From a virus, in IMG/VR virus record IMGVR_UViG_3300044681_000884, positions 1-29,751 of that record: a stretch of DNA of 29,751 nucleotides; one strand, written 5' to 3'. The notes under the pieces were generated by a model. It saw nothing but the letters and a program-made list of their open reading frames with translations, had not been told where the DNA came from and made no database searches. Position 1 is the first letter of the stretch; the number at the start of each line of letters is the position of its first letter. Made by a program: the position numbers and the translations under genes. Positions 20,398-24,199 of the stretch are shown here, piece after piece.

Positions 20398-20826
20398 ATG
20401 ACAAAAAAATTTGATAAGTTAAATCAGTCTTTTAATACAAGTGCTGAAATTATATCTAAAAAAATAGATACTAATATAGAAAGTATAGAGACAACTACTT
20501 CTAGTATTTCGGAAGATATTAAAAAAGATTACGAATATACTAGAGGAAATTTATACTCTTTAATAGAAAAAGGTCAAGAAGCTATTAACGGTATTCTTGA
20601 GTTGGCCCAGGAAAGTGAAATGCCTAGAGCATATGAAGTTGCCGGACAACTCATTAAAAGTGTTGCAGATGCCACGGATAAATTAATGGAACTTCAGAAA
20701 AAATTAAAAGACGTTGAAGAAAATAAAATAAAAGGACCAACAACAGTCAATAATGCATTATTTGTTGGATCTACAGCAGAATTAGCAAAATTTTTAAAAC
20801 AACAATCTCAAGAAAATATAGAATAA
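20398..20826 (+). CDS. 16: small terminase subunit gp16
   Basis: gp16 forms a ring that recognises phage DNA and regulates the gp17 ATPase/nuclease at the start of packaging. The 142-residue protein (T4: 164) is highly helical and charged. It shows the conserved central segment DIKKDYEYTRGNLYSLIEKG, QEAINGILELAQESEMPRAY, EVAGQLIKSVADATDKLMEL, and a C-terminal VNNALFVGSTAELAKFL tail. The start at 20398 is ten bases after the gp15 stop with no clear Shine-Dalgarno. Unusually, it is not adjacent to gp17: a 555-residue gene with its own late promoter lies between the two terminase genes. Confidence 0.92.
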   Translation: MTKKFDKLNQSFNTSAEIISKKIDTNIESIETTTSSISEDIKKDYEYTRGNLYSLIEKGQEAINGILELAQESEMPRAYEVAGQLIKSVADATDKLMELQKKLKDVEENKIKGPTTVNNALFVGSTAELAKFLKQQSQENIE

Positions 20827-20832
20827 TAAATA
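20825..20832 (+). promoter_or_regulatory. T4-type late promoter box AATAAATA
   Basis: Seven of eight match to TATAAATA, overlapping the gp16 stop TAA (20824-20826). The next gene starts 24 bases downstream. It separates expression of the mosaic gene, and probably of gp17, from gp16. Confidence 0.55.
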
Positions 20833-20856: not shown

Positions 20857-22524
20857 ATGCCCAAAAAACATCATAAAACATTTAAAGATGTATCTGAAGA
20901 GGGTCTTAGAGATTGGTTTGGATCATCTAAATCTAAAAACAAAAAACCTGGTTGGGTAAATGTTGTAACTGGTGGAACTTGTGCTAGTGATGAACCGGGA
21001 GAAGGCGTTCCTAAGTGCGTCTCCTCAAAAAAAAGAGCAAGTATGACAAAGGCAGAAAGACTTTCTGCAGCAAGAAGAAAAAAGGAAGCAGATCCGGGAC
21101 AACAAGAAAAAACGGATGCTGCAAAACCAACATACGTTTCAACTGATAGTCCAAGAAAAAAAATGAAAGAAGAATTAGAACTTCAAGAAGTCAAGGATAA
21201 ACCAGGAAAAGGTAGTGGCAAAAAAGATGCGTGCTATAATAAGGTAAAATCTAGATACGACGTTTGGCCAAGTGCATATGCATCTGGAGCACTTGTAAAA
21301 TGTCGTAAAGTCGGTGCAGCAAACTGGGGAACCAAAACGGAGGAAACTATGCACGAAGAAGAAAGATACTGCCCTTTATGCGATAAAAGAGAAACAAGAT
21401 CTGAATGCTCTTATGGAGAGAAAGCATGGGATAAAGTCTCAGTTAAAGACGAAGAATACTCGATGGCAAGGTCAGAACTCAAGACCATTGAGGACGCAGT
21501 AAAAAGACTCAAATCAAAAGTAAATAGAGGTGAAGGAGATCTAGAGGCATGGGTTCAATCAAAAATCACTAAAGCAGCAGATTATATTGACACAGCTGCA
21601 GATTATGTTGCAAGTGGTGAAATGGAAGAAGAATTAAGTCCTAGAATTAATCCAGAAAAACACAAATCACAAAGATTGTCATCGGCAGCAAAAAAAATTG
21701 AGAATATGACAACTGCTCAACAAGCACAATTACCACAAAAGGCAAAAAAAGTCGTTGGAGTAACACTGCCAAAATTTGAAGAAAAATTAGTAGATAAAAT
21801 TACTAAAGAAATTCTCGATGAAAAATGTTGGAGTGGATATAAAAGGAAAAAAGGAACTTCTAAATTTGAAAAGGGTTCTTGTGTAAAATCAGAAAATGTC
21901 ACTATTGAAGACGCAAACGGAAATACATTTGCAGAAGTTATTGATATTATTAAACCTGAACCAATTAAAGGTTTTAAGTCTCAAGTAAATGAAGCAACAA
22001 GACTTCAGGCACAAACTGGAAATGTAATCGCGGTTACTTTAAACTGGAGAGGAAAATATTATTCTCTAAAAATGTTTTTTCCTCAAGTTAAACTTCCAAC
22101 ACGTAAAGAAATTAATGATGAACTTCAAAAAGTTTATCCAAATTGCAATGTAATTTATCATTCTGTTTCCGAAATTCAACCCGGACAACCTCTAATCCAG
22201 GCATTTGGTCCTCAAGGTGGAAATACTGCAAAACCAGGAGCAAATAAAAACTATGTAAAACCAATGGGAGAAGAAGTTGAGGTTGATGAAGACTGGCAAA
22301 AAGTAAATCGTCAAGATAGAACTGATGGATTGAGTTCCGCTGCAGTAAAGGCATATCGCAGAGAAAATCCAGGTTCAAAACTTAAAACTGCTGTTACCAC
22401 ACCTCCTTCAGAATTAAAACCAGGTTCGGCGGACTGGAAAAGGAGAAGAAATTTCTGTAGTCGTTCTAGAAGTTGGACTGGAGAAAGAGGTAAGGCAGCA
22501 CGCAAACGCTGGAATTGTAATTAA
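20857..22524 (+). CDS. domain-mosaic cysteine-containing phage protein (DUF5872/DUF6321-like segments)
   Basis: 555 residues built from short segments I recognise from T4-like marine phages, none with a known function. Residues 8-95: GLRDWFGSSKSKNKKPGWVN, VVTGGTCASDEPGEG, PKCVSS. Residues 110-158: DACYNKVKSRYDVWPSAYAS, GALVKCRKVGAANWG (DUF5872-like). Residues 172-184: CPLC...C, a possible metal site. Residues 198-255: helical MARSELKTIEDAVKRLKSKV with EAWVQSKITKAADYIDTAAD. Residues 324-342: CWSGYKRKKGTSKFEKGSC. Residues 357-448: a predicted alpha/beta segment (YYSLKMFFPQVKLPTRKEIN). Residues 478-555: a basic Arg/Lys tail with FCSRSRSW and RKRWNC. The DUF numbers are from memory. It lies between gp16 and gp17 under its own late promoter, so it is probably made late. 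It could be an internal head protein or packaging accessory. No Shine-Dalgarno is visible before the ATG. Confidence 0.75.
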   Translation: MPKKHHKTFKDVSEEGLRDWFGSSKSKNKKPGWVNVVTGGTCASDEPGEGVPKCVSSKKRASMTKAERLSAARRKKEADPGQQEKTDAAKPTYVSTDSPRKKMKEELELQEVKDKPGKGSGKKDACYNKVKSRYDVWPSAYASGALVKCRKVGAANWGTKTEETMHEEERYCPLCDKRETRSECSYGEKAWDKVSVKDEEYSMARSELKTIEDAVKRLKSKVNRGEGDLEAWVQSKITKAADYIDTAADYVASGEMEEELSPRINPEKHKSQRLSSAAKKIENMTTAQQAQLPQKAKKVVGVTLPKFEEKLVDKITKEILDEKCWSGYKRKKGTSKFEKGSCVKSENVTIEDANGNTFAEVIDIIKPEPIKGFKSQVNEATRLQAQTGNVIAVTLNWRGKYYSLKMFFPQVKLPTRKEINDELQKVYPNCNVIYHSVSEIQPGQPLIQAFGPQGGNTAKPGANKNYVKPMGEEVEVDEDWQKVNRQDRTDGLSSAAVKAYRRENPGSKLKTAVTTPPSELKPGSADWKRRRNFCSRSRSWTGERGKAARKRWNCN

Positions 22525-22540: not shown

Positions 22541-24199
22541 ATGACAAATAATGATGTTTATCTTGGCAATCCGTTATTAAAAAAAGCGAATACCACTCAC
22601 GAATTTACTGAAGAGCAAATTCTTGAAATCTCCAAATGCATGAGTGATCCTGTTTATTTTGCAAAAAATTATGTAAAAATTGTAACTCTTGATCATGGAT
22701 TGCAGCCATTTAAAATGTATCCATTTCAAGAAAAACTTGTAAATAGATTTCATGAGCACAGATTTAATATCTGTAAGATGCCTCGTCAAACGGGGAAATC
22801 AACTACCGTAGTATCTTTTCTTTTACACTATGCAGTATTCAATGATAATGTAAATATAGGCATCCTAGCAAACAAAGCAGCAACCGCTAGAGAACTATTA
22901 GATAGATTGCAGACAGCATATGAAAATTTACCAAAGTGGATGCAACAAGGAATCATATCTTGGAACAAGGGTTCTTTGGAACTTGAAAATGGAAGTAAAA
23001 TCTTGGCTGCTTCTACTTCTGCTTCTGCAGTTCGTGGTATGTCATTCAACATTTTATTTTTGGATGAATTTGCGTTCGTCCCAAATCATATTGCAGATTC
23101 ATTCTTTGCTTCAGTTTATCCTACGATCACTTCGGGTAAAAATACAAAAGTAATTATAGTATCAACTCCACATGGTATGAATCATTTCTACCGAATGTGG
23201 CATGATGCTGAAAAAGGTAAGAATGAGTATATATTTACAGATGTTCATTGGAGTGAAGTTCCTGGAAGAGATGAAGAATGGAAAAAGCAAACTATATCAA
23301 ACACTTCTGAACAACAGTTTAAAGTTGAGTTTGAATGTGAATTTTTAGGTTCTGTAGATACCTTAATTGCTCCATCAAAACTAAGATCCCTTGTTTATGA
23401 CCATCCTAAGACTCGCAGTGCTGGATTAGATGTTTATGTAGATCCAGAAGAAAACCACGATTATCTTATTACTGTGGATGTTGCAAGAGGAGTAGGAAAT
23501 GATTACTCTGCATTTACTGTTGTTGATATAACAGAATTTCCTCACAAAGTAGTTGCAAAGTATAGAAATAATGAAATAAAACCAATGCTTTTTCCAAGTA
23601 TTATTGATGAAGTTGGAAAAAGTTACAATGATGCTTATGTGTTATGTGAAGTTAATGATGTTGGGGATCAAGTGGCAAGCATTCTTCAATATGATTTAGA
23701 ATATAAAAATTTACTGATGTGTTCAATGAGGGGAAGAGCAGGTCAAATTGTAGGCCAAGGATTTTCTGGGAAGAAAACTCAACTTGGAGTAAAGATGTCA
23801 AAGACGGTAAAAAAAGTCGGATGTCTTAATCTTAAAACAATGATTGAAGAGAATAAGTTATTTTTAAATGATTATGAGATTATTGCAGAACTCACAACAT
23901 TTATCCAAAAACACAATTCCTTTGAAGCAGAAGAGGGATGTAATGATGACCTTGCAATGTGTTTAGTAATTTATGCTTGGTTAGTAGCTCAAGATTATTT
24001 CAAAGAACTTACAGATCAAGATGTGAGAAAACGATTATATGAAGAGCAAAAAAATCAAATAGAACAAGATATGGCACCATTTGGTTTTGTATCTGATGGA
24101 TTAGACAGTGGTAGTTTTGTAGATAATGATGGTGATAGATGGTTTGTTGATGAATATGGCGATCGTTCAAATGAATGGGAGTATATGTGGAAATATTAA
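22541..24199 (+). CDS. 17: large terminase subunit gp17 (packaging ATPase/nuclease)
   Basis: This is the motor that pumps DNA through the portal and cuts the concatemer. At 552 residues (T4: 610) it has all key motifs. Walker A is MPRQTGKST at residues 80-88. Walker B is ILFLDE at 171-176, with the catalytic Glu at 176. The coupling motif VSTPHG is at 207-212. The RNase H-fold nuclease carries its acidic triad in TVDVARGVGNDYSAF (D313), LCEVNDVGDQ (E370) and GCNDDLAMC (D469/D470). The C-terminal tail APFGFVSDGLD...WEYMW is as in marine T4-like terminases. A TTTAGGAG ribosome site precedes the ATG. It is followed one base after its stop by a zinc-finger ORF. It appears intact. Confidence 0.97.
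   Translation: MTNNDVYLGNPLLKKANTTHEFTEEQILEISKCMSDPVYFAKNYVKIVTLDHGLQPFKMYPFQEKLVNRFHEHRFNICKMPRQTGKSTTVVSFLLHYAVFNDNVNIGILANKAATARELLDRLQTAYENLPKWMQQGIISWNKGSLELENGSKILAASTSASAVRGMSFNILFLDEFAFVPNHIADSFFASVYPTITSGKNTKVIIVSTPHGMNHFYRMWHDAEKGKNEYIFTDVHWSEVPGRDEEWKKQTISNTSEQQFKVEFECEFLGSVDTLIAPSKLRSLVYDHPKTRSAGLDVYVDPEENHDYLITVDVARGVGNDYSAFTVVDITEFPHKVVAKYRNNEIKPMLFPSIIDEVGKSYNDAYVLCEVNDVGDQVASILQYDLEYKNLLMCSMRGRAGQIVGQGFSGKKTQLGVKMSKTVKKVGCLNLKTMIEENKLFLNDYEIIAELTTFIQKHNSFEAEEGCNDDLAMCLVIYAWLVAQDYFKELTDQDVRKRLYEEQKNQIEQDMAPFGFVSDGLDSGSFVDNDGDRWFVDEYGDRSNEWEYMWKY

Follow-up and report, generated by a model that had tools for sequence, protein, structure and literature searches.

The open reading frame at 20857-22524 most plausibly encodes a modular internal head protein that is packaged together with the DNA, a reading to which we assign a probability of about 0.65. 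The window, by which we mean the whole 29,751-nucleotide stretch analysed here (IMG/VR virus record IMGVR_UViG_3300044681_000884, positions 1 to 29,751), represents part of the genome of a T4-like cyanophage (Kyanoviridae); all window coordinates below are on the plus strand. T4-like cyanophages abound in the ocean, and many of the proteins in their virions are still hypothetical. An internal head protein had been one of the suggestions of an earlier, sequence-only reading of the window, and it is well supported by the shuffling of modules among relatives, by published virion mass spectrometry for two of those relatives, and by T4-type capsid-targeting sequences (CTS) on stand-alone copies of the modules.

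The protein would be expressed late, enter the prohead core ahead of DNA packaging, be retained in the mature head alongside the genome and probably be ejected with it. Its C-terminal DUF6321 domain would be the constant part, and the other modules (small cysteine-pair, basic or alpha/beta units) would serve as exchangeable cargo on flexible linkers; by analogy with the T4 internal proteins, they may shield the entering genome or condition the host. For the window protein itself we infer the location inside the head, the ejection and the molecular function, and the charge of its last 75 residues suggests contact with DNA. An anonymous conserved gene, T4-GC 119, thereby becomes a candidate for genome-delivered cargo.

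Genomic position and identity of the gene

The window gene (encoding 555 residues) does separate gp16, which encodes the terminase small subunit (20398-20826, with support from synteny), from gp17, which encodes the large subunit (22541-24199), and the late promoter ascribed to it is likewise supported: a late-promoter-like element, ATAAATA, lies at 20826-20832, 25 nt 5' of the start codon. The same element is enriched before related genes, occurring within 60 nt upstream of 68 of 129 of them compared with 18 of 750 random positions. Within the window it is rarer than expected by chance (9 sites, against 22 expected from shuffling), and all nine sites are on the plus strand, most of them just before genes; the majority stand about 18-36 nt 5' of late genes.

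Among annotated proteins, the closest match belongs to Synechococcus phage S-SRM01, which comes from a Singapore reservoir; matches are present in 385 phage records, with hosts that are nearly all Synechococcus or Prochlorococcus. Matches by tblastn and blastp to SSM2_109 of S-SM2 and SSM1_115 of S-SM1 assign it to the T4-GC 119 family (the gene is named T4-LIKE GC 119 in the S-SM1, S-SM2, Syn19 and S-SSM7 records), and in PHROGs the family corresponds to phrog_727 and phrog_3477, both of unknown function. The family gene lies between gp16 and gp17 in all 30 TerL-selected contigs that have both terminase genes, a frequency that describes near relatives rather than T4-like phages at large, because family loci were collected through similarity to the window's own proteins. 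In S-SSM7 the GC 119 gene is sited outside this interval. Further genes, including metabolic ones, occupy the interval, and it is a named hot-spot in Sullivan et al. 2010, who credit Millard et al. 2009 (PMC3037559).

The gene had been put forward as the best candidate in the window for an undescribed system, which is correct in part. The family has already been catalogued since 2010 in ocean and lake viruses, its C-terminus is a Pfam domain and the interval is a published hot-spot; on the other hand, T4-GC 119, phrog_727 and phrog_3477, which share family, position and modules with the window copy, are catalogued without function or module structure, and our literature search returned no function, module structure or head-targeting tag for the family. 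Its modular build and its head-targeting tags appear undescribed.

The deposited S-SRM01 record (MW015081.1) labels gp17 (L002:9617-11338) 'tail sheath protein' and attaches 'terminase large subunit' to the gene that follows it; in the RefSeq copy, NC_070963.1, the gene at that locus is named terminase.

A string of nine modules

We delimited modules in the window protein using profiles built on relatives and obtained nine, A to I, ranging in size from 23 to 82 aa. The sequence-only reading had proposed a string of at least six short domains, several with paired cysteines; the string holds at a count of nine, and the five cysteine pairs are all present. Module A (residues 15-96; 20899-21144) has Cys42/Cys54, module B (residues 124-158; 21226-21330) Cys126/Cys149, module C (residues 170-192; 21364-21432) a CPxC motif (C172/C175) plus Cys184, module F (residues 322-344; 21820-21888) Cys324/Cys342, and module I (residues 478-554; 22288-22518), the basic DUF6321 domain, the invariant Cys534/Cys554. 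C430 is a further cysteine that had been missed. Module D (residues 200-256; 21454-21624) is acidic with two predicted helices, modules E (residues 264-299; 21646-21753) and G (residues 348-373; 21898-21975) are defined by their profiles, and module H (residues 379-448; 21991-22200) has a predicted beta-beta-alpha-beta arrangement. The C-terminus is very basic, as had been noted (pI 11.4 for residues 481-555).

The description as a domain mosaic is apt, as the modules are shuffled among relatives. In S-SM2, the BLAST match to window residues 197-261 lies upstream of the match to residues 12-116, and there are dozens of module orders among the 143 relatives with at least four modules. This recurrence of the modules in changed orders means that the modular string is not a chance reading. 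Among complete relatives that possess DUF6321, the domain closes the protein in all but S-SSM7, in which a further module comes after it. Relatives also contain inserted domains (DUF192, DUF5661 and DUF3008), and these together with DUF6321 are the only supported Pfam matches in the family; a match to HrpB7 (E 0.015) was dismissed, as it falls far short of its cut-off and covers residues predicted to be helical. Most near relatives begin with a DUF5661 module; this is missing from the window copy, which starts inside their J-A linker.

Against the profile of Pfam family DUF6321 (PF19846), the C-terminal domain of the window protein scores 27.8 bits, below the gathering cut-off of 28.5, while relatives score far above it. 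Alignment with full members shows that its middle segment is shortened and that the invariant G, Y, L, R, FC-x-R and W-x-C columns are kept. With a query from P-SCSP2, DUF6321 is single-copy in each of the 212 matched phage records.

A full-length AlphaFold2 model was unusable (mean pLDDT 49). A model of H-I (pLDDT 69) predicts the beta-beta-alpha-beta arrangement for H and a small helical unit for I; it matched no PDB fold at E <= 0.001, and its top matches in a viral structure library were mostly members of the same family, with the S-SCSM1 'Virion protein' first. A PDB sequence search with the window protein gave no match.

The architecture resembles that of polyvalent proteins (Iyer et al. 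2017, PMC5512222) in having many shuffled domains on one polypeptide and in being packaged in virions, the latter here in relatives only. It differs in that the window protein is without recognisable enzyme domains, its modules are only 23-82 aa long and a candidate conflict function is not apparent.

Modules encoded as separate genes

Modules of the window protein also occur as separate genes, A and B standing alone in P-SCSP2, CRP-207 and CRP-901. The T7-like Prochlorococcus phage P-SCSP2 has five tiny consecutive ORFs between its scaffold and major capsid protein (MCP) genes, which run from B through an EF-hand-like and a helical unit to A and then I, and the order portal-scaffold-B-EF-helical-A-I-MCP is found in 80 related T7-like contigs, in which I precedes MCP by about 123 bp. 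DUF6321 lies between the scaffold and capsid genes in pelagiphage HTVC131P and upstream of terminase in Methylophilales phage MEP401; modules A and B lie upstream of the terminase genes in roseophage CRP-207. In roseophage CRP-901 they are neighbouring small ORFs, B and A (L173:2974-3370), absent from the deposited annotation, and in a flavophage the two are fused. Ma-LMM01 is an exception, with its DUF6321 gene distant from the head genes.

That cyanophages, pelagiphages, roseophages and a flavophage have these modules in common suggests one function for many hosts. A wider interpretation, which we offer tentatively, is that aquatic phages of unrelated lineages draw on a common kit of small head-packaged modules, each with a gene of its own next to the capsid gene in T7-like phages and fused into a single shuffled chain on a constant DUF6321 end in T4-like cyanophages; together with T4-type tags on many other proteins, this might amount to a general system for injecting exchangeable mini-proteins as cargo alongside the genome.

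Capsid-targeting sequences

In the T4 record, internal proteins IPII and IPIII start with MKTYQEFIAEA and IPI with MKTFKEF. The first ten residues of IPIII are sufficient for head targeting, with positions 4 and 7 weighing most in targeting and 8 and 10 in processing (PMC9026906). We found that modules G, H, I, K and M also exist as small proteins of their own that begin with MK(S/T)F-xx-F, the CTS of the T4 internal head proteins. The cyanophage contigs encode more than 100 stand-alone H, K, M or G-H proteins with an N-terminus of the form MK[STN]F/Y..F, and position 10 is nearly always Glu or Asp. H stands alone with a CTS in nearly 60 contigs, G is part of a CTS-headed G-H protein in two (L156 and L158), and S-SZBM1_192 consists of MKTFKQYITEA followed by DUF6321. 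A near relative (L010) has a stand-alone H gene, which in the window genome would be expected just past the window's end.

CTS-like stretches also occur inside linkers of family proteins. The S-T4 protein has an internal KSFEQFIGEM that scores 17.2 bits (T4 IPII scores 20.2) and was reached by none of 1500 shuffles; corresponding stretches score 15.4 bits in S-SSM4 (0/1500), 12.8 in S-RIM8 (2/1500) and 11.7 in S-SM1 (2/1500). Judged by their sequences, these four proteins look as if CTS-headed genes had been fused.

The N-terminus of the window protein was rejected as a CTS (score -36), and its best internal match, KTFKDVSEEG (residues 7-16; 20875-20904), is unconvincing at 5.3 bits, a score reached by 37 of 1500 shuffles. 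By strict criteria the protein is therefore not filed as IP-class, and since it has no canonical N-terminal CTS, its entry into the head would depend on DUF6321 or on other modules. We nevertheless propose that it works like an IP-class protein. It resembles T4 IPI, IPII and IPIII (and Alt) in being late, basic and, in relatives, virion-borne, and the MK-x-F/Y-xx-F tag is common to the T4 proteins and to CTS-headed stand-alone copies of its modules; it differs from them in that it strings many modules together and lacks a clear N-terminal CTS, and no similarity to the IP bodies was seen.

As a positive control, nicotinamide-nucleotide adenylyltransferase (NMNAT) from S-SCSM1 virions starts with such a tag. 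The N-termini of cyanophage virion NMNAT/cytidylyltransferases read MKSFLQFLKEA in S-SCSM1 (ORF91, L280:1501-2730), MKSFFQFLSEA in S-SM2 (L268) and MKSFTSFFTEA in P-TIM68 (L290), and a T4-type CTS would explain the presence of NMNAT in virions. We found no description of a CTS in cyanophages in the literature searched, most subscription journals being outside its scope; these tags offer a direct, testable route to listing head-packed proteins.

Eight genes of S-SRM01 (L298-L302) have a start of the CTS pattern, among them two long basic proteins encoded in tandem (L301:716 and L301:1543), and from their sequences they are candidates for further head cargo. Beside the family gene of S-SM2, the small gene SSM2_108 (L303:1-429) has a CTS-like start, then a stretch that nearly duplicates mature gp23's N-terminal arm (PTNSVGNGGYTSAGGQTVAGYD), then module K; it is possibly a capsid mimic or duplicate.

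Virion proteins in relatives

Two relatives place members of the family in virions. S-CREM2 gp137, which consists of H-I (DUF6321 profile E 3e-37), was detected in CsCl-purified virions with 4 unique peptides but only 4.1% coverage, and the adjoining gp136 with 8 unique peptides (PMC10665884 Table 3); gp136 starts with MQTFSMFFSE. S-SCSM1 ORF29 is a family member with the record label 'virion protein'. This label appears to denote detection by mass spectrometry, as ORF91 (QFG06348.1), named as detected in the S-SCSM1 paper, has it and TerL does not; the paper's count is 45. Against this, the 30 virion proteins listed as detected in S-SZBM1 do not include its split relatives (191, 192 and 194).

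The detections could also be accounted for by a prohead core or packaging factor that acts ahead of packaging or while it proceeds, in concert with gp16, gp17, the portal or the scaffold, its virion copies being a residue rather than delivered cargo. The constant gp16-gp17 position is in keeping with such a factor, as are the stand-alone modules, which in T7-like phages adjoin the scaffold and capsid genes and in MEP401 and CRP-207 precede the terminase genes. However, the S-CREM2 virion table (PMC10665884 Table 3) lists gp137 and not the terminases, the high turnover of modules would be unusual in a core part of the assembly machinery, and other genes, metabolic ones too, are found in the same interval. 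Position is the sole direct support for the packaging modulator that had been suggested alongside the internal head protein, and we consider a role of this kind unlikely.

Linkers and proteolytic processing

Somewhat less probable again is a head-packaged polyprotein that the prohead protease gp21 would cut at L/I-x-E sites in the linkers, releasing small proteins. gp21 cuts after L/I-x-E (PMC9026906), and the broader motif [LIV]xE is enriched in the linkers of the family (136 observed, 94.5 in shuffles) and depleted in the modules (38 observed, 65.4 in shuffles). The only two [LI]xE sites of the window protein are both in linkers and may be gp21 sites: LQE in the A-B linker (residues 109-111; 21181-21189), where 48 of 53 relatives have L/V/I-Q-E, and LDE in the E-F linker (residues 320-322; 21814-21822), which is kept in a minority only. 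The existence of the modules as separate genes elsewhere would also suit this explanation, but T7-like phages that encode the same modules separately need no cleavage. Enrichment of the strict motif [LI]xE is weak (69 observed, 57 in shuffles), LxD is more enriched (52 observed, 28.9 in shuffles), and a conserved site is missing from most linkers. Cutting at every linker is unsupported, given a moderate and unspecific [LIV]xE enrichment and a conserved site in the A-B linker only.

We regard it as very improbable that the protein is a structural component associated with the tail or fibres, or a late protein foreign to the virion and detected there as a contaminant: some relatives adjoin tail-fibre-like genes and CsCl purification leaves room for contaminants, as the S-CREM2 authors say of other proteins (PMC10665884), but stand-alone copies of the window modules have a CTS, detections were made independently in two phages, and synteny in T7-like phages is with scaffold and capsid genes.

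Two further S-SCSM1 virion proteins are tiny, SSCSM1_97 (L304:31122-31307) and SSCSM1_93 (L304:29627-29836). One resembles the gp23 N-terminal arm and the other is a stand-alone DUF3008 unit with a C-terminal CTS-like RTFKEFLE.
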